From positions 62,001 through 126,000 of the forward strand of contig JAEURX010000075.1 of assembly GCA_016788885.1 (NCBI GenBank): a stretch of DNA of 64,000 nt, read 5' to 3'. The notes under the pieces were generated by a model, which had not been told where the DNA came from, made no database searches, and saw only the letters and a list, made by a program, of their open reading frames with translations. Source of the DNA: Nitrospira sp. (GTDB lineage Bacteria > Nitrospirota > Nitrospiria > Nitrospirales > Nitrospiraceae). Position numbers and translations under genes: made by a program. Below are positions 29,660 through 39,414 of the stretch, piece by piece. Position 1 is the first letter of the stretch; every line of letters begins with the position of its first letter.

Positions 29660-31474
29660 ATGGCTGACTTCCACGACGCGCTCCAGTCCAAGCTCGACCA
29701 CTTGCCTGACCAACCGGGCTGCTATCTCTTTCGAAACGCAAAGAGAGAGATTCTGTATGTCGGGAAAGCCGCGGTGCTGGCCGACCGCGTGCGCTCGTAT
29801 TTTCAGAAGGGCAGCGATCAGACACCCAAGACCAGCTTGCTCGTCAGCGAGATTGCCGACCTCGAAACCATCGTCACCCGCTCTGAGTTAGAAGCGCTGA
29901 TCCTCGAAAGCAATCTGATCAAGCGCCACCGTCCCCGATTCAACATCGTCCTGCGCGACGACAAACAGTATCCCTATTTGCGGTTACCGATCAAAGAGCC
30001 CTTTCCCCGCCTGTCCATCGTTCGCCGCGTGCACAAAGACGGGGCGCTCTATTACGGACCCTATACGCCGGCCGGCGCACTCCGTGAAACCTTGAAAGTC
30101 ATTCGCAAAGCGTTCCCCCTCGCCACCTGTGACATCGAGATCGACGGCCGGGCGGACCGAGCCTGCATCGAGTTTGAAATCAAACGGTGCATGGCACCTT
30201 GCACCGGTAACCAGTCCCGCGAAGACTATCACCTGATCGTCAACCAGGTGCGCCAGTTTCTTGAAGGTCGGGACCGGGAACTGCTGGACAGCCTGCGACA
30301 GAACATGGAATCTGCAGCTGAACGGGAAGAGTTCGAAGAGGCGGCCCGCTTACGGGACCGGCTGTTCAGTGTGGAGCGGACGCTGGAGAAGCAACGCATT
30401 ACCCAGGTCAGCACCTCCGACCAGGATGTGGTCGGACTGGCTCGCCAAGGCACGGCAGCGGACCTGCAGCTGCTGTTCGTGCGCGGCGGCCTACTGATCG
30501 GGCGGAAAGATTTCTTCTGGCCGCAGTCCGCCGACTCCAGCGACGAAGAACTCGTGCGCTCCGCGATCGAGCAGTTCTACAACAAGGAAGGGCAACCGCC
30601 CAAAGAACTGTTGGTACCGACCGACCTCTCCGATGCGCTCCTGATTGAACAATGGCTGAGCGAGAAGCGGGGTGATGCCGTTCGGCTCCTCACTCCGGAG
30701 CGGGGCACGAAACATCAGTTGGTGCTGCTCGCGGAAGAAAATGCGGCCGCCGCCATCGCGGACCATCTGCGCAACGAGGCCCTCGACCGGCAGGCCACGG
30801 CGGAACTGAGACGCTTGCTCCGTCTAGACGTCGCCCCTCGCCGTATCGAAGGCTTCGATATCTCGAACATTATGGGAAACCAGTCCGTCGCGTCCCTCGT
30901 GGTGTGGGAAGACGGACAGGCCAAGAAGGCCGACTACAGAAAATTCCGCATTCAAACGGTGGAAGGGGCCAACGATTTTGCCAGCATGCAGGAAGCCGTC
31001 ATGCGACGATATGGCGCCACGGAAGACCTGGCACGGCCGGATCTCATCCTGATTGATGGCGGCCTCGGGCAGTTGAGCGCCGCCATCGAAGGGCTGAAAC
31101 ACGTCGGACAGGAACAGATTCCGATCATCGGCCTCGCCAAAGCTCGCGGCGAGAAGGACGAGCGGATCTTTCTCCCGGGGCGTAAGAATCCCATCGTCCT
31201 GCGGCCGACCTCCCCCGCCACACACCTCGTGCAGCGGATCCGCGACGAAGCCCACCGATTCGCGCTCACCTATCACCGGAATCTGCGTGGCAAAGCGCTG
31301 CTCTCTTCCGAACTGGACCAGATCGTTGGCATCGGCAAAATCCGCAGGAAACGGCTTTTGAAGCTATTTGGGAGCGTACAACACATTGCTGCCGCCACCG
31401 ACGACCAACTCAAGACCGCCGGCCTTGATCAAGCCACCGTCGCTGCACTACGTAAAGCCCTCACCCCGGCCTGA
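29660..31474 (+). CDS. uvrC: excinuclease ABC subunit C
   Basis: 604 residues. UvrC makes both incisions in nucleotide excision repair. It has the GIY-YIG nuclease (about 13-93: GCYLF...ILYVGKA), UVR domain (about 200-240, EEFEEAARLRDRL), the RNase H-like domain with ILIDGGLGQL, and C-terminal helix-hairpin-helix repeats (VGIGKIRRKRLLKLFG). Length is usual. No Shine-Dalgarno is clear. Confidence 0.98.
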   Translation: MADFHDALQSKLDHLPDQPGCYLFRNAKREILYVGKAAVLADRVRSYFQKGSDQTPKTSLLVSEIADLETIVTRSELEALILESNLIKRHRPRFNIVLRDDKQYPYLRLPIKEPFPRLSIVRRVHKDGALYYGPYTPAGALRETLKVIRKAFPLATCDIEIDGRADRACIEFEIKRCMAPCTGNQSREDYHLIVNQVRQFLEGRDRELLDSLRQNMESAAEREEFEEAARLRDRLFSVERTLEKQRITQVSTSDQDVVGLARQGTAADLQLLFVRGGLLIGRKDFFWPQSADSSDEELVRSAIEQFYNKEGQPPKELLVPTDLSDALLIEQWLSEKRGDAVRLLTPERGTKHQLVLLAEENAAAAIADHLRNEALDRQATAELRRLLRLDVAPRRIEGFDISNIMGNQSVASLVVWEDGQAKKADYRKFRIQTVEGANDFASMQEAVMRRYGATEDLARPDLILIDGGLGQLSAAIEGLKHVGQEQIPIIGLAKARGEKDERIFLPGRKNPIVLRPTSPATHLVQRIRDEAHRFALTYHRNLRGKALLSSELDQIVGIGKIRRKRLLKLFGSVQHIAAATDDQLKTAGLDQATVAALRKALTPA

Positions 31475-31546
31475 CTCTCGCCACCTGACCTTGGCTGTAT
31501 GCGGTTCGATACACCCGTATCCGATTGGGTACGCCGTGTCAGCCTT

Positions 31547-31582
31547 GTCTGCCGCGTCTCGATCCGCGGCAGACGAATTTTC
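31547..31582 (+). terminator. hairpin terminator downstream of uvrC
   Basis: GTCTGCCGCG (31547-31556) and CGCGGCAGAC (31565-31574) form a perfect 10-bp stem with the loop TCTCGATC, followed by GAATTTTC. A short T-run is present, so a rho-independent terminator is likely. Confidence 0.6.
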
Positions 31583-31628
31583 TCCTTGCACGACAGGCCT
31601 TTCATCGCTACGCTCACTCCCCATGGCG

Positions 31629-31651
31629 ATCTACGTACTAGGTACGTAGAT
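31629..31651. promoter_or_regulatory. perfect 10-bp palindrome upstream of the lipoprotein operon
   Basis: ATCTACGTAC (31629-31638) and GTACGTAGAT (31642-31651) flank a 3-base centre, TAG. The site is 53 bases before the ATG at 31704 and has the form expected for a dimeric regulator. It contains TACTAGGT, which recurs at 35596-35603 upstream of the LuxR gene. Confidence 0.5.
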
Positions 31652-31703
31652 TGCCTCTTCAGAGAATCGATCCGACTTTTTACGCTCACCAGGAGGCATC
31701 CCG

Positions 31704-32336
31704 ATGAGGATGTGGCCCATCGCCGGCGTCCTGACGTTCGCGCTCCTGACCGCCTGCGCAACCCCGCCGGAAATCAAACAAGCGCTCGCGGCCAAAGACC
31801 AGGCCTACGCAGAGAATGAGCGGCTCATGCAGCAGTATCGTGAGCTGGTGAGCAATATCACTACCAGGCACCTGCAGTGGTACCGCTATGTGCAGACACG
31901 CCTCAAACTGGATTTGGCCCTTCAATGGGCGACCACCAATCCGCGGGTAGCCGACGTCCCGGAGGCTGCCATGGCCGAAGATGATGCGGCGGAGCTCGGT
32001 CCAGACGTCTTGCGCGTCATTAATATGATCCGCCTGAAGTCTCTCCCCGAACGCAAAGGGCAAACCGGGCAACCCGTATTTGCCGCCGGATCGGGCGACA
32101 TGAGCAACCTCGTGCAGCAACTCCCGGAGTTGATCGCCCAGGTGGAGCGGCGCGTCTCGACAGATGCCAAAGCGCCGCAGGCCGTTGATTTGACCGCGTT
32201 CGACCACTACCGCACCAATGTCGACGTGCTCCGCCGGATCAATGGCCTGATCAAGCAATACCTGGACATCGACGTCACGCTGAGTCAAACGGAGACCCAG
32301 TCCCTGGCCGACGCAATTCGGACGGTGCGGCGATGA
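31704..32336 (+). CDS. lipoprotein of unknown function
   Basis: 210 residues. A lipobox (LLTAC, Cys about residue 18) marks it as a lipoprotein. The rest is largely alpha-helical, with a predicted coiled coil at about 20-60 and no Cys afterwards. An AGGAGG site precedes the start. It overlaps or abuts the second lipoprotein gene and belongs to a three-gene set. I do not recognise the family. Confidence 0.65.
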   Translation: MRMWPIAGVLTFALLTACATPPEIKQALAAKDQAYAENERLMQQYRELVSNITTRHLQWYRYVQTRLKLDLALQWATTNPRVADVPEAAMAEDDAAELGPDVLRVINMIRLKSLPERKGQTGQPVFAAGSGDMSNLVQQLPELIAQVERRVSTDAKAPQAVDLTAFDHYRTNVDVLRRINGLIKQYLDIDVTLSQTETQSLADAIRTVRR

Positions 32337-32371
32337 CCCATCTTCCCGTCGCTCACCAGAAGGAGTCCTCC

Positions 32372-33082
32372 ATGGTCAGCCGAAGCCTGGCACGATTCTC
32401 CTTCGCCATATTGATGCTCGTCGCGACCGGGTGTCACTCCATTCACAGCAGTTCGGTCCGCGAGCTCCTTCAATTGGAAGGAACCAAGATCGACGCCGCC
32501 CAAACGAATATTGATCTCTTTCAGAAGGAAACCGAATCGCGGGTCAGGTACCTGGAGCAAGCCCGCGCCGAACTCCATGAAGCGTTCAAATCTCTCCACA
32601 TGCAGGAAACCAAGCACCGCTTCGCCCTGGCGGCCTTTCGAAACTTGACTACTCGGAAGGGAGACTCCGCCTATGCGGCCGCCTACCTCACTAGCCTTAT
32701 TTATATGGAGGACGTGCAGGGGCTTGAGAAAGCGGTCTGGAATCAATTCGAGGCAGACTTCTGCGGCCTGCGCGACACGGCGAACGCCCTCAACGACTCC
32801 TGGAAACACACCGCCACCCTCCATGCCCAGGTGAATCGTTTTGCCAAACAATCAGCCTTGGCCTCGGTCGATCCGGAGTTCGTCGCGGCACTTCTCAGCC
32901 AAGCTCCGAATCGTTCTGAGCAGATCATGGGAATCTTGAACCAGTCCCGCACGGCCAATGACGCCTTGGAAGAAGTGGTCGGGGCGCGCATTCTCCGCAT
33001 TGGCGGACTTGATCGTGCGCAACGATTCACTGCGGACCTGGTCGAGCTGCTGGACCGGCTCAAGAAGGATGACGGACAGTAA
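32372..33082 (+). CDS. lipoprotein of unknown function
   Basis: 236 residues from the ATG at 32372, chosen over an upstream frame start because AAGGAG lies just before it. The lipobox is VATGC (Cys about residue 21). The mature protein is helical, with long charged stretches (KIDAAQTNIDLFQKETESRVRYLEQARAELHEAF) and no known domain. It resembles its upstream neighbour in size and style rather than sequence. The two probably act together at a membrane. Confidence 0.65.
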   Translation: MVSRSLARFSFAILMLVATGCHSIHSSSVRELLQLEGTKIDAAQTNIDLFQKETESRVRYLEQARAELHEAFKSLHMQETKHRFALAAFRNLTTRKGDSAYAAAYLTSLIYMEDVQGLEKAVWNQFEADFCGLRDTANALNDSWKHTATLHAQVNRFAKQSALASVDPEFVAALLSQAPNRSEQIMGILNQSRTANDALEEVVGARILRIGGLDRAQRFTADLVELLDRLKKDDGQ

Positions 33083-33093
33083 CGGAGGACGCT

Positions 33094-33615
33094 ATGAACC
33101 GCAGCTTTGAGGGAGTGGTGACCTTCCTCCGGGACAACGACACTGTGTTGAAACAGCTGATGGAGACGGGCGAGACCGCGACCCATGAGATTGAAGAGCT
33201 TGCCACCCGCTTAGACCATGCGCGCGAGGAGGCGCAAGTGTTGATCGATCAACTGGGTGCGGTGGCGTTCAGCGTCGGGCAGCAGGACGAGACGAAGGTG
33301 AAGCAGACCGCGCTGTTGGAAGCCGTCACCGCCTTACGGAAGAAATTCGAAATGTATAAGAATGACCCGCTACGACGAGGTATTTATGCGGCGGAAATTT
33401 CCAACCTGTACCTGCAGTTGGCCAACACGTTCAACAACACCACCGTCTCTCAAATTGTCCCCTTCGCCCAGGACGAGATCGAGGGCTACAAAGAGTTGAT
33501 GAGGAAAGCCGTGCTCGACGCCGCCTCGCGGCAGAAACGTGCCGCGGTGCTCAAGGCCGGGGTACAGATTTCGCGTCTGGCGCTGAGCGTGGCCGGGAAA
33601 TTGGCGCTGGCCTAG
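33094..33615 (+). CDS. soluble helical protein of unknown function
   Basis: 173 residues, no signal sequence, a predicted coiled coil at about 25-55 and a short hydrophobic C-terminal segment (LKAGVQISRLALSVAGKLALA) that could insert into or bind a membrane. It starts 11 bases after the second lipoprotein gene and ends 20 bases before the next lipoprotein. I recognise no family; the operon context suggests an envelope-linked partner of the two lipoproteins. Confidence 0.6.
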   Translation: MNRSFEGVVTFLRDNDTVLKQLMETGETATHEIEELATRLDHAREEAQVLIDQLGAVAFSVGQQDETKVKQTALLEAVTALRKKFEMYKNDPLRRGIYAAEISNLYLQLANTFNNTTVSQIVPFAQDEIEGYKELMRKAVLDAASRQKRAAVLKAGVQISRLALSVAGKLALA

Positions 33616-33635
33616 GAAAGAGGGGAGCCGCACCC

Positions 33636-34406
33636 GTGATGTGGACACCAGCCGGAATCATCGCCATTCTCTTCTGTGCCGCCTGCAGCCTCGATGCATC
33701 CTCGCGCGGCCCCTTCGGCCCTGCGGATCCCGAGACCCCCGTTCCGAAACGATCGCTCCCCGCACACGTTCCGGCAAGACACGTTCTGGAATTCACGGCC
33801 GATGAGTCGCCCGGGCATGTCAAACCCAAAATGGCCGGAGCCGCCATGGATGCCGGCGTCACTCGATCACCCAGCCCGATCATGCCGCTATCGGTACGTG
33901 ACGTGGCCTCGATGAGGAACGCCGCTGAAGCCGACCCCCGTGTCGCCGCCCTGCTGGGCGCACGATGGGGATTTATCGATGCCGATGCAACCCCGCCGAA
34001 GAGCAAAGTTTCCTTTGGTTGCTGTCAGATCAACTCACGATTCACCAGACTCACCTACTTCAGCTATAGCCATAACGTGGCCGTCGACGTACGCATGAAA
34101 GACGGGGGCGTCCTGGAGGCTTCTCGATCCGAAGGGTACCTCCCGCCGGAAGGACCGCAGGATGTGGCACGGGGCATTGAACTGGCGCGTGCCGATCAAC
34201 GCCTCGCCGGCAACGTGCGCGACATGCAAGGCCATGGTCTTCTCATGCAGCCGGATCGGGGGTTCTTCAGAAACGACCCGGGGTATAGCCATCGGGTGAT
34301 GTGGATCACCTTCTCGCAGGGAGTGGGCGGAGACCCCAAATATTGGGCACAGGTCGACCTCACGGATGACCGTGTACTGGACGCGGGCGCTGAGCCGCCT
34401 CGTTAA
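33636..34406 (+). CDS. lipoprotein resembling copper amine oxidase domains D2/D3
   Basis: 256 residues with a lipobox (FCAAC, Cys about residue 17). From residue 90 two helix-strand modules follow: ADPRVAALLGARWGF with strands RLTYFSYSHNVAVDVRMKDGGVLE, then GYLPPEGPQDVARGIELARADQRLAG with strands HRVMWITFSQ and KYWAQVDLTDDRVLDA. This matches my recollection of the D2/D3 domains that precede the catalytic domain of copper amine oxidases (PPLTxxEhxxAxxLVRADPRV pattern). The catalytic part is encoded by the next gene. Domain recognition is by eye and needs a profile search. Confidence 0.5.
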   Translation: MMWTPAGIIAILFCAACSLDASSRGPFGPADPETPVPKRSLPAHVPARHVLEFTADESPGHVKPKMAGAAMDAGVTRSPSPIMPLSVRDVASMRNAAEADPRVAALLGARWGFIDADATPPKSKVSFGCCQINSRFTRLTYFSYSHNVAVDVRMKDGGVLEASRSEGYLPPEGPQDVARGIELARADQRLAGNVRDMQGHGLLMQPDRGFFRNDPGYSHRVMWITFSQGVGGDPKYWAQVDLTDDRVLDAGAEPPR

Positions 34407-34528
34407 CGGTCGGCACGTGTGCGAACGAAACCGGGCGGCGCGGTGACGGGCGAGGCGTGATAAGCCGGTTCAGTCATCGACAGGCACGATCTGGCGCTGC
34501 CGCCCGGCAAGGCTTGAAAGGAGAGCGG

Positions 34529-35509
34529 ATGAAACGTGTCCTGACCGGCATCCTCCTGCTGTGCGGACTCCTGACATCGCCGCTTGCCGGTGCGGCTAAT
34601 CCCACCGCTGAACATCTGCAATGGGGACGCTGGAGCTTTGACTATGAGGTTCGGGACAACACCGGCCTGGCGCTCAGAAACGTGACCTATGACGGGGAGC
34701 TCGTCCTCGGCAAAGCCAGCATGCCGGTCCTGCGCGTCAAATATGTGAAGGAACGCATCTGGTGGAATCCCTTCACGTGGTTCGGATCCCGCGCCGACAG
34801 CGGGCGCTGCGGCCCATTCCAGGATCGACTGCGCTGGCAGGACCTGGTCCCCATCGTCAACTGTGGCAACAATACAGTCTGTGTTGAAAGCTCCACGCTG
34901 AACGGGACCAAGTGGCTTGAACTCGGCATCTATGCGCGTATTGGGGAGTACCACATTTACCAGTCCTGGCATCTGTCCGACGACGGAGAACTTCGCCCGA
35001 TTGTTCAAAGCCGCGGACTCTCCTGCAATACCGACCACATCCACCACCCCTACTGGCGCTTTGACTTCGACATCGATGGCAACGGTATGGACCAGGTCTT
35101 TGCTCATGACGACGGGGGAACCGATCATGGCTGGGGCCCCGGATGGACGAAATATACGAACGAACGTAACGACGTGAAAGTCTCCGCCACCCACCGGACC
35201 TGGTTCATTCGTGATCAACTCACCGGTCACGGCGTCTGGCTCCTTCCTGGAGAAGGGTACGCGCCCCTCAAAGGCGACGGAGAACGAGATGACTTCGCCG
35301 ACCATGATGTTGCCATCCGGCGTGCCAATCCGGACGAAGACCTACCCTGGGTGTTTGGGGCACGCGGACAACTGGGCTATGACCAGGACAACCAGAGCGT
35401 GCAAGAGCAGGACGTCGTGGTCTGGTATGTGGCTCATCTTCCACACATGGCTGCCCTTGGCCCGACGAAATGGCTGACCCTTGGGCCAACCCTCAAAATT
35501 CAACGCTGA
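34529..35509 (+). CDS. exported short copper amine oxidase-like catalytic protein
   Basis: 326 residues from the ATG at 34529, after a strong AAAGGAGAG. A signal peptide (about 1-22) precedes a domain aligning with copper amine oxidase D4. The matching segments are GLALRNVTYDGELVL; ADSGRCG with possible base D90; IGEYHIYQSWHLSDDGEL with Y141 at the topaquinone position; HIHHPYWRFDFDIDG with H170 and H172 as copper ligands; and VVVWYVAHLPH with H306 as third ligand. The Tyr motif is EYH instead of NYD/E, so cofactor formation may be altered. At about 300 mature residues it is half the usual length; D2/D3-like modules lie in the preceding lipoprotein. It would oxidise primary amines to aldehydes, if active. 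Confidence 0.6.
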   Translation: MKRVLTGILLLCGLLTSPLAGAANPTAEHLQWGRWSFDYEVRDNTGLALRNVTYDGELVLGKASMPVLRVKYVKERIWWNPFTWFGSRADSGRCGPFQDRLRWQDLVPIVNCGNNTVCVESSTLNGTKWLELGIYARIGEYHIYQSWHLSDDGELRPIVQSRGLSCNTDHIHHPYWRFDFDIDGNGMDQVFAHDDGGTDHGWGPGWTKYTNERNDVKVSATHRTWFIRDQLTGHGVWLLPGEGYAPLKGDGERDDFADHDVAIRRANPDEDLPWVFGARGQLGYDQDNQSVQEQDVVVWYVAHLPHMAALGPTKWLTLGPTLKIQR

Positions 35510-35597
35510 CCACCTCTCGCCGGCTCACCTGGCCCTCTCTTCAAGACCCAGAACGCCATCCCTTTCCCGTTGCGGTTCATACCTTAGGCACTCTATA

Positions 35598-35617
35598 CTA
35601 GGTGCAGGTTACCCTAG
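35598..35617. promoter_or_regulatory. 20-bp imperfect dyad upstream of the LuxR gene
   Basis: CTAGG...CCTAG arms enclose a 20-bp element of lux-box length, 143 bases before the LuxR ATG. Only the outer five bases on each side are fully symmetrical. A role in autoregulation is a guess. Confidence 0.25.
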
Positions 35618-35760
35618 ATCCCGCTCATTTGGTCGCAGTACAATCAGCCGTTCCCCCAAGGATACAGTTGTCTCAGCATGGACCAAATCCGAATGTGTGA
35701 GCGCGACGACGACCGATCTATTGAGGCGACGACAAGGCGCGCTCGGCGGAGAGCATTGCC

Positions 35761-36558
35761 ATGAATCAGCCGGGATTTTCTACAAAGGAATTCCAACAAC
35801 TCGGCGAAATCATGCACGACGCTCGCTCCGTCAATCGAAGCGAAGGCGTCTGGAAACTCGTATCGGCTGTCCAGCACGTTATTCCCTATGAATTTTCGGG
35901 ATGCGGAGGAGTGGATCTTCTCCGTGGAGTCGATCCGGCGCTTGGGCACTCGACCTATCCGAGGGAGTTCTGCCAGCTCTACATGGGCCAGGGATTGGCG
36001 GCAGACCCTGCCGTATACCGGCTGATCACCTCCGGGCAGTCCGTCACATCCAGTGCCGACGAACCCGCCTTCACCGAGCCGAAAGACATCAGCGCCCTCA
36101 AGCTGGATTTCGGCATTAAGACGTGCCTGTCGGCCGGGGTACGCGGGGAACAGGGGACCTGCTCCTACTTTGCCTTCAGCAACTTCGACGCCAAGCACGC
36201 AGACAAACTCCGGCTACTGCTCGATATTCTCACCCCGCATTTTCACTTAAGCTACATGCGGTGCAGCTCAACGTGGAAGCCTGAGCGACCGGCTCACCCG
36301 ACAATTCTGTTGAGTAAACGGGAAGAAGAGATCCTCCGTTGGGTCGCGGCGGGCAAGACCAACTGGGAGATTTCTGTCATCCTCAAAGTTAGTTTGAATA
36401 CGGTGAAGTTCCACCTCAAAAATATTTTCCAAAAAATCGGGGTCGAAAACCGCTGGAGTGCCATCGCCTACTGGCAGACCGGCGAGCAACATCGGCTCAT
36501 TTCCTCTTCGCCTCCCAGTGACGATCGTTCACCGTCCGATTCCAATCGCGCGGAGTAA
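35761..36558 (+). CDS. LuxR-type transcriptional regulator, no LuxI partner nearby
   Basis: 265 residues. An N-terminal autoinducer-binding-like domain (about 1-170) precedes a LuxR helix-turn-helix (about 182-245: LSKREEEILRWVAAGKTNWEIS and NTVKFHLKNIFQKIG). In the ligand domain the DP pair (D82-P83) and nearby Tyr are kept, but the two pocket tryptophans of acyl-homoserine-lactone receptors are not seen at the expected places. It may therefore bind a different ligand. The next two genes encode a nitroreductase-like protein and a ketosynthase, obvious candidates for its targets. CGGAGAG precedes the start. Confidence 0.85.
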   Translation: MNQPGFSTKEFQQLGEIMHDARSVNRSEGVWKLVSAVQHVIPYEFSGCGGVDLLRGVDPALGHSTYPREFCQLYMGQGLAADPAVYRLITSGQSVTSSADEPAFTEPKDISALKLDFGIKTCLSAGVRGEQGTCSYFAFSNFDAKHADKLRLLLDILTPHFHLSYMRCSSTWKPERPAHPTILLSKREEEILRWVAAGKTNWEISVILKVSLNTVKFHLKNIFQKIGVENRWSAIAYWQTGEQHRLISSSPPSDDRSPSDSNRAE

Positions 36559-36734: not shown

Positions 36735-36777
36735 ATAGGGCCTAACGGCCCTAGGCAACCGGAAGGAGAGGCCCTAT
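36735..36777 (+). promoter_or_regulatory. mutually exclusive hairpins over the 36776 start codon
   Basis: ATAGGGCC (36735-36742) can pair with GGCCCTA (36747-36753) in a compact hairpin. It can also pair, by 8 bases, with GGCCCTAT (36770-36777), which includes the A and U of the start codon and abuts the Shine-Dalgarno GGAAGGAGAG (36761-36770). The two pairings exclude each other, so the leader could switch translation on and off. Confidence 0.45.
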
Positions 36778-38047
36778 GAAGCAGCTCGCTACACAGTCTG
36801 CAGCAATGGACGCCACATTCACCCTGTTAGACCTCCTGCAACAGCGAAAAACCCGTCGCTTCGGCCTTGGGATGACGCTGCCGAGTGGCCCGCTCCAATA
36901 CACCAGTCATCATGAGCCGGTTCCGCTGAGTCAGGAAGAAGAACGGTATTTGATTTATGCGGCGATCGGGCGATCGGGACGGAATCTGGGTGATATGCAC
37001 TTCGTCGGGAAGCCCGGCTCGAGCGAGGGGCAAGGAAACGCCTTGATGAATTTCCGAAGCCGCACCGTTCCCAGTCCGTGCTCCGCACAGACCACGCAGT
37101 TGTTTTACACGAACGACGAGGGCGTCTTCTTTGTGGCCGATGCCGCCAGCGCCGACCACTCCTGGGACCTGGACATCGTCCAACTCCAGCCCTCCCGGCT
37201 CGAGATCCCGCGTGAAGTGCCGTTCATGTTGCCGTTCAACCAATGGTATACAAACCGGCCCGGTACCACGCTCTTCTTTCCCGTCACCAATATCGCCTTA
37301 CTCTACCTGAATCTGCTCCTGATGATGTTCAGCGAGGACACCGGATATTTCATCGTCGATACCGACCATGGCAATGCCGGCTGCGGCCTGGACGCCTTCC
37401 GCAAGAGCGCGGGCGGACACCTGCATGACGATATCCGGGCACGCCGAATGTTCAGCTTGCGGGAACTCGACGCGGCGATTTGCGAAACGGCGATTCAGGA
37501 GCAAGGCATCATCTGCGAACACATTTCCTTGATGCAGCAGGCGCTGGGGCTTGGCGGCGGCATCCAGAGCGTGGGAAGCGGACGGCATCTCCTGGGCCTC
37601 GAGCCGCACATCTATCCGGGGCTGGGCTTCCAGTTCGTCGTCCCGCCCGGCAAGCCGATGCGGGCAAATCCGGTCGGCATCCCGGGCGTGTGGGAAGGCC
37701 CCATGCCACCCTTCGTAGCCTCGATGAAAGAGGCTGTCACTCGGCTGGTCGACAGCAAGTTCGGGCCGAATGGCACCTTCAGGAAGCCTCACGAGCAGAC
37801 CTGGGTCAGACCCGGATCGGCACAACAGGTTCCGGAACATTCCGCACGCGCCGTCGACGCCACCATCGCGTTTACCGAATATGTCCTCGCCACCTATGGG
37901 CGCTTCCCGGCGCACGCCGATGCCTGCAAGTCCGTCGTGGCCTGCCAGACGCATCACCTGGACGAAGATTTTTATGCGACGTTCTATCCCGACTCCGCCT
38001 TGCCGGACGCACATCGTGAGCACATGCATGCATGGCATTCCCATTGA
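36776..38047 (+). CDS. nitroreductase-like protein
   Basis: 423 residues. The N-terminus has the nitroreductase-like opening LLQQRKTRRFGLGM and LSQEEERYLIYAAIGRSGRNLGDMHF. The C-terminal half carries EQGIICEHISLMQQALGLGG, like the conserved helix near the FMN site. The protein is twice the usual single-domain length, as in fused or two-domain members. No signal peptide. It probably binds FMN and carries out an oxidation or reduction on a carrier-bound or small substrate, but no close relative is recognised. It stands 41 bases upstream of the ketosynthase gene in the same operon. Confidence 0.55.
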   Translation: MKQLATQSAAMDATFTLLDLLQQRKTRRFGLGMTLPSGPLQYTSHHEPVPLSQEEERYLIYAAIGRSGRNLGDMHFVGKPGSSEGQGNALMNFRSRTVPSPCSAQTTQLFYTNDEGVFFVADAASADHSWDLDIVQLQPSRLEIPREVPFMLPFNQWYTNRPGTTLFFPVTNIALLYLNLLLMMFSEDTGYFIVDTDHGNAGCGLDAFRKSAGGHLHDDIRARRMFSLRELDAAICETAIQEQGIICEHISLMQQALGLGGGIQSVGSGRHLLGLEPHIYPGLGFQFVVPPGKPMRANPVGIPGVWEGPMPPFVASMKEAVTRLVDSKFGPNGTFRKPHEQTWVRPGSAQQVPEHSARAVDATIAFTEYVLATYGRFPAHADACKSVVACQTHHLDEDFYATFYPDSALPDAHREHMHAWHSH

Positions 38048-38088
38048 CGACATACTTTTTCACGCTCTTACGAGCACAGGAGGGCATC

Positions 38089-39414
38089 ATGACACCACAG
38101 ACCTCTCGTCGAGTCGTCATCACCGGCATGGGAGTTATTTCCCCCTTGGGTTGTACCGTCGATCTCTTTTGGCACCTGTTGAGCCGGGGAGACAGCGCGG
38201 TGAAGCCGATCACCTCATTTGACACCTCTCCCTTTCAGGCCTGTCTCGCGGCCGAGGTGCAGGATTTCGATCCCGAGGACTTTTTGCATCGTAAACAGGC
38301 CCGGCGCATGGGACGGGCGACTCAGTTCGCGGTGGCCTGTGCCATGATGGCGACACGTGATTCCGGGATCGACCTGGAACAGGAGGATCGCGGCACCATC
38401 GGTATCAGCATCGGCACCTCCATCGGCGGCATGAAAGAAGCGTTTGAGTTTCATGACGCAGCCAAGCTGAACGCCTACGAGCGAGTCAATCCCTTTACCA
38501 TGGGTATGACCTTTCCGAATGCGATCTCTTCGGAAGTGGCCATCGTCCTGGGGTTGCATGGTCCCTGCGAGACCTATTCCATCGGCTGTTCCTCAACGGC
38601 CAATGCCATCGGACGCGCCTATGAATGGATCAAGTCGGGACAATCTTCCCTGGTCGTGGCGGGGGGGACGGAAGCGCCCCTTCATCCGAGTGTGTACGCC
38701 GCCATGAACGCCGGTCGGGCACTGGCACCGGACGAGCACGGCACAATCCGGAATCTTCCCCGCCCCTTCGACAAGACCCGGTGCGGCATGGTGCTGGGCG
38801 AAGGAGCGGGCTGTTTTATCCTTGAGGACTACGAGCATGCCCGCGCCCGCGGCGCCAAAATGTATGCCGAACTGGAAGGGTGGGGCTTCACCTGTGACGC
38901 CCACTCGATGGTCAAAGCCGCCTGCACCGGGCAAGAGCAACAACGGGCCGCCCGGCTGGCACTCTCAACCGCCCACTGGTTCCCCGAAGAAGTGGACTAC
39001 GTGAACGCCTGCGGCCTCGGCACCATGGAATTGGATGCGATCGAAACACAGACGGTGAAGCAGGTCTTGGGCGACCATGCCTATCGAGTGCCCGTCAGCT
39101 CGTTCAAAGCGGCACTTGGCCATGCCTTCGCCGCCAGCGGAGCCTTCCAACTCATCGGAACCGCGAAGGCGATGGAACACCAATTCATCCCACCCACGCT
39201 GAATTTGACCACTCCGGACCCGAACTGCGATCTGGATTATGTTTCGGGAACCGGGCGCGTAGCGCACGTCAATCGCGCGCTGATCAATAGCTTTGGATTC
39301 GGCGGCAAGAATATTGTGCTGGCACTCTCACGTGTGAACCTCGGCGCCGCCGGTACCGGTTCGATGAAAGCCGCACCGGCGTACGGCATGAATCAATTGG
39401 TTGGAGTATCCTAG
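38089..39414 (+). CDS. FabF-like beta-ketoacyl synthase with Cys-Cys-His site
   Basis: 441 residues from the ATG at 38089, which has AGGAGG upstream. KS domains join acyl units by decarboxylative Claisen condensation. The nucleophile C167 sits in SIGCSSTANA and the distal His is H345 in AALGHAFAASGA. The first His, normally in VNAHGTGT, is replaced by Cys: C308 (tgc at 39010-39012) in VNACGLGTMELDAIE. FabF numbering of Cys, His, His (163, 303, 340) fits well. No ACP, AT or other PKS module is in the window. The change could alter decarboxylation and so the product or role; together with the nitroreductase it suggests a small-molecule pathway. Confidence 0.85.
   Translation: MTPQTSRRVVITGMGVISPLGCTVDLFWHLLSRGDSAVKPITSFDTSPFQACLAAEVQDFDPEDFLHRKQARRMGRATQFAVACAMMATRDSGIDLEQEDRGTIGISIGTSIGGMKEAFEFHDAAKLNAYERVNPFTMGMTFPNAISSEVAIVLGLHGPCETYSIGCSSTANAIGRAYEWIKSGQSSLVVAGGTEAPLHPSVYAAMNAGRALAPDEHGTIRNLPRPFDKTRCGMVLGEGAGCFILEDYEHARARGAKMYAELEGWGFTCDAHSMVKAACTGQEQQRAARLALSTAHWFPEEVDYVNACGLGTMELDAIETQTVKQVLGDHAYRVPVSSFKAALGHAFAASGAFQLIGTAKAMEHQFIPPTLNLTTPDPNCDLDYVSGTGRVAHVNRALINSFGFGGKNIVLALSRVNLGAAGTGSMKAAPAYGMNQLVGVS

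Follow-up and report, generated by a model that had tools for sequence, protein, structure and literature searches.

Two adjacent genes of a Nitrospira sp. encode, as two separate proteins, a compact variant of the copper amine oxidase (CuAO) fold, which is not a classical member of that family. They lie in the 64,000-nucleotide stretch of DNA analysed here ("the window"). The first, P2 (33636-34406, + strand, stop codon included), encodes a 256-aa lipoprotein that is the D2/D3-like half of a CuAO; the second, P1 (34529-35509, + strand), encodes a 326-aa exported protein that is a compact CuAO catalytic domain (D4). Both halves are homologous to their CuAO counterparts, the residues of the copper and tyrosine site are conserved, the two genes are obligately paired, and both are under selection.

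The two ORFs are present at the coordinates and lengths given by the first-pass annotation of this DNA. Both are intact and on the same strand, with 122 nt between them; P2 has an alternative start, an ATG at 33639. Each half has its own gene and its own signal sequence (a signal peptide of about 22 aa in P1), and D2, D3 and D4 are not on one chain. P1 is the sole PF01179 match within its own genome. Scans for promoters and terminators over 31400-35900 gave nothing beyond chance level, and neither an aldehyde dehydrogenase nor an amine transporter gene lies beside the pair. Three genes of no known function, encoding lipoproteins of 210 and 249 aa and a 173-aa coiled-coil-like protein, occupy 31704-33615 on the + strand, and the same set directly precedes P2-P1 in most Nitrospira loci. 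It is a separable module, since it is absent where G057 and G280 carry the pair and lies nearby on the opposite strand in G278 (locus L136). Directly downstream of P1, at window positions 35761-36558, lies a gene for a LuxR-type regulator that has an autoinducer-binding domain and is closest to the NCBIfam family EpsA; a LuxR-type gene beside P1 is conserved in the window's genus and was not found at most other Nitrospira loci. It is followed by a 423-aa protein without a Pfam or NCBIfam match (36776-38047) and a beta-ketoacyl synthase-like gene (38032-39414), both of them syntenic in the window's genus.

P1 scores 37.8 bits against Pfam PF01179, Cu_amine_oxid (cut-off 27; E 1.4e-9). A family profile made from a varied set of eight relatives (28-84% identity to P1) matched the CuAOs of A. 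globiformis (AGAO; E 1.2e-10) and E. coli (E 2e-8) in the PDB. Profile-profile comparison with ten classical CuAOs gave an alignment spanning TynA 348-722 (E 1.1e-11), with no match when the target was reversed. The AlphaFold model of P1 is of low confidence (mean pLDDT 49.9), because only close relatives entered the prediction; all 50 matches listed by Foldseek for this low-confidence model are CuAOs (E 1.6e-9). P1 belongs to the Cu_amine_oxid domain homologues, and its first reading as a CuAO catalytic domain, made by eye, is borne out by Pfam, PDB profile, profile-profile and Foldseek matches, that is, by profile and by structure.

The PDB profile alignment places P1 Tyr141 (34949-34951, + strand) on the tyrosine that is the precursor of topaquinone (TPQ), as do the profile-profile and joint alignments. 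It also places His170 and His172, an HIH motif (35036-35044, +), on the HxH pair, and His306 (35444-35446, +) on the third ligand; these three are the predicted copper ligands 1, 2 and 3. In the joint alignment Tyr72 (34742-34744, +) is the counterpart of the tyrosine that hydrogen-bonds TPQ O4 (AGAO Y284, HPAO Y305), a contact described for HPAO Y305 (PMC3382800). Y72, Y141, H170, H172 and H306 are identical in 22/22 split or single-chain compact rows and in all ten classical rows of that alignment. The Y141, H170/H172 and H306 assignments of the first-pass annotation thus fall on classical CuAO sites and are invariant. Its D90 in "ADSG" aligns but is not supported as the catalytic aspartate, because the column is not conserved: across the family it is a gap or holds any of D, E, A, S, G and P. 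The candidate base in its place is Asp99 (34823-34825, +), an invariant residue in the motif CGPFxD; with single-chain relatives as the query D99 aligns to the TynA base, and with P1 as the query to another column.

The surroundings of Tyr141 are not classical. The consensus around the TPQ tyrosine of classical enzymes is T-x-x-N-Y-D/E (PMC3382800), and P1 departs from it with R-I-G-E-Y-H, as had been noticed at the outset (EYH, not NYD/E). Within the split set, 51 rows have R-I-G-E-Y-H and others G-Q/T/H/A-Y-H/D, while one split member (L134) carries the classical G-N-Y-D, and the single-chain relatives carry G-W-Y-R. Across the compact clade the residue before the tyrosine is E, Q, T, N, H, A or W, and that after it H, D or R. 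The effect of such changes is known from mutants: AGAO N381A still forms TPQ, with biogenesis 180-fold slower and kcat down 160-fold (PMC9491219), while in HPAO the N404A mutant makes 5-10% TPQ and the E406Q mutant forms the cofactor ten times more slowly (PMC3382800). Either the compact clade compensates for its altered motif or it performs other chemistry. On the latter account the fold and copper site would have been kept while the tyrosine stayed unmodified or gave another cofactor, the protein serving some other oxidation, copper handling or sensing. This would fit the variable residues flanking the tyrosine, the published single changes beside it that cripple TPQ formation and turnover, the lack of conservation at the classical base position, and the distance of the entire compact clade from classical CuAOs (branch support 100/100). 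Yet the TPQ-making residues of classical enzymes, namely three histidines and the precursor tyrosine together with the hydrogen-bonding partner of TPQ, Tyr72 in P1, are all invariant, N381A does still make TPQ, if slowly, and one split member has GNYD; we judge altered chemistry unlikely, though it deserves a serious hearing. The D4 domain is also shortened. Between Y72 and Y141 there are 69 residues in P1 against 97-98 in classical CuAOs, and between Y141 and the first histidine 29 against 50-58 (21-29 fewer); the loss of some 29 residues before the tyrosine suggests that P1 may have lost a dimer arm, which in the classical homodimers is a beta-hairpin.

P2 carries, at its N-terminus, the sequence FCAAC|SLDA, which we take to be a lipobox, with Cys17 (33684-33686, +) as the lipid-attachment cysteine; this residue is invariant among 34 Nitrospira P2 sequences. 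Model secondary structure and profile alignment place a first, D2-like alpha-beta repeat at residues 86-165 (33891-34130, +) and a second, D3-like one at residues 174-253 (34155-34394, +). Searches with P2 (34 members) against Pfam and PDB sequences gave zero matches. The Pfam check proposed for both proteins came out positive for P1, above the PF01179 cut-off, and negative for P2. Against a multi-sequence profile of classical CuAOs, however, the P2 family profile matches TynA 117-311, the D2/D3 region, with E 3.3e-5 and a score of 46.1, where 200 column shuffles gave at most 26.8 and the reversed target 18.2. The match to TynA as a single sequence is weak (E 0.038, TynA 253-315 only), so the multi-sequence profile is needed. 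The AlphaFold model of P2 (mean pLDDT 64.6) has two alpha-beta repeats from residue 86 onward, and in a Foldseek search of the PDB its first 25 matches are all CuAOs (E 8.5e-6, probability 1.00); their global TM-scores are low (0.22-0.33), so that only the local fold, and not the domain arrangement, is modelled. PSI-BLAST from P2 reaches the N-half of the Nonomuraea single-chain protein (L129) in round two (E 2e-5) and the N-halves of all single-chain compact relatives by round three. The P1 and P2 matches on TynA (348-722 and 117-311) are collinear with D2-D3 followed by D4. P2 is the D2/D3 half of a CuAO; profile-profile comparison with its controls, Foldseek and the single-chain relatives agree on the resemblance first seen by eye. 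D3 helps to form the substrate channel of classical CuAOs, and at HPAO position 155, in the channel, the residue is Pro or Ser (PMC3382800). P206 of P2 aligns with the proline of TynA "TPLTVGYF", the substrate-channel proline of CuAOs, and is Pro in 51/52 rows, in an alignment that is uncertain for the most divergent members.

The genome survey covered 296 Nitrospirota genomes, and other phyla were sampled through plasmid records only. P2 is present in 37 of the 296, every one of which also has P1, and intact split P1 and P2 co-occur in 37/37 genomes. At 37/37 loci of named Nitrospira genomes P2 lies directly before P1, usually 10-35 nt away. The co-occurrence that had been proposed as a check was thus found, both as presence in the same genome and as adjacency. 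P1 without P2 was seen in four genomes, which have P1 fragments only or, in G236, fragments together with a single-chain form. Both genes are under purifying selection, with dN/dS of 0.04-0.05 for P1 and 0.10-0.19 for the faster-evolving P2. P1 might nevertheless work by itself, P2 being a co-transcribed lipoprotein of D2/D3 derivation with another task, such as anchor or chaperone; the faster evolution of P2 speaks for this, as does the precedent of lysyl-oxidase type enzymes, in which a small quinone domain can function alone. Each genome with an intact split P1 has P2, however, and vice versa, both halves are joined in the single-chain relatives, and D3 lines the substrate channel of classical CuAOs, all of which make an independent P1 improbable.

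Fragmentary P1 copies occur in G016, G151, G210, G236 and G293; the P1 fragments of several relatives suggest that the pair has been lost repeatedly and recently. Such degraded copies are also what one might cite for taking the pair itself as a decaying remnant or an artefact, a functionless classical CuAO broken by frameshift or assembly error. Against this, dozens of independent assemblies have the intact pair, both genes have a start and a signal sequence of their own, the dN/dS of P1 is 0.04-0.05, and the split forms make up one clade; for this genome conservation of the pair refutes such a remnant, and we give the whole idea next to no credence. The split pair is also present on a Microvirga plasmid, and in G046 and G234 it has C-terminal additions (e.g. 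P-domain). Among split P1 proteins these additions comprise FYPxNNQxEALT-type repeats in Microvirga, a P-domain (PF01483) in G046 and a similar tail in G234; the loci concerned are L130 4689-7572, L071 8274-9725, L134 7125-8621 and L133 7011-8588.

The nearest relatives of the split pair are single-chain compact CuAO-like proteins, around 540 aa long (520-580 aa), found in G011 (L068), G022 (L069), G234 (L132), G236 (L139), Variovorax sp. WDL1 plasmids (L128) and Nonomuraea (L129). They have a compact D4 as in P1 and an N-half homologous to P2, and differ from the split forms in being fused, in lacking an apparent signal peptide and in carrying GWYR where split P1 has GEYH. In the maximum-likelihood tree one branch sets the split forms apart from all others (support 99/98), another does so for the single-chain compact forms (98/99) and a third for the classical proteins (100/100); the split clade is sister to the single-chain compact forms, and both stand apart from the classical enzymes. 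As the two compact forms are sisters, one splitting (or one fusion) accounts for the data. The original reading of the locus as a split CuAO, with D4 and D2/D3 on two adjacent exported proteins, agrees with the co-occurrence, the single-chain relatives and the tree. In G022 the single-chain gene adjoins one whose 1076-aa product contains a metalloprotease-like motif, HELGGHG (L069 2874-7852), and on the Variovorax sp. WDL1 plasmid it adjoins FG-GAP and galactose oxidase-like genes (L128 4332-11095).

Compared with classical CuAOs (PF01179; E. coli TynA, Arthrobacter AGAO, Hansenula HPAO), P2-P1 has the same D2-D3-D4 content and order, D2 and D3 being supplied by the partner protein P2, and P1 has in common with them the three copper histidines, the precursor tyrosine and the TPQ-O4 tyrosine. 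The classical enzymes, however, are homodimers of one chain of about 640-750 aa, with T-x-x-N-Y-D/E and a longer D4, whereas P2-P1 is encoded by two genes and has RIGEYH and a shortened D4. Every TPQ CuAO with a characterised structure is a single-chain homodimer, of about 70-80 kDa (PMC3382800). Because P2-P1 differs from classical TPQ CuAOs in two features, the single chain and the consensus, we file it as a variant and not as a member. In the open-access literature we found no published description of the compact branch, split or single-chain, and no paper on a split or heteromeric CuAO or on a CuAO in Nitrospira. Lysyl oxidases (LTQ enzymes) also have a small copper/quinone amine oxidase domain, as is proposed for P1.

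The reading that we somewhat favour is that P2-P1 is a two-subunit compact CuAO, tethered in the cell envelope, that oxidises a primary amine by way of copper and a tyrosine-derived quinone. The lipoprotein P2 would supply D2 and D3 and tether the complex to a cell-envelope membrane, while P1, exported by its signal peptide, would supply the shortened D4. P1 would bind one copper through H170, H172 and H306, and Y141 would probably become topaquinone or a quinone of similar kind. P2 would close the substrate channel, and the complex would turn a primary amine into an aldehyde, ammonia and hydrogen peroxide. More tentatively, this two-protein, membrane-tethered enzyme of CuAO fold could form its cofactor although the Asn-Tyr-Asp/Glu context is missing, or use another tyrosine-derived cofactor, and carry out a new envelope oxidation in these nitrite-oxidising bacteria; we hold this possible rather than probable.

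A natural split between D2/D3 and D4 opens a way to the role of D2/D3, because each half can be expressed alone or with the other. With its tyrosine and histidines invariant but the motif changed, the protein would also offer a natural test of the requirements for TPQ formation. The P1 gene can be provisionally assigned as encoding a copper-site protein; we found no paper in the open-access literature that ties such a gene to Nitrospira. Nitrospira are central nitrifiers, and there the oxidation of amines to ammonia would be ecologically relevant.
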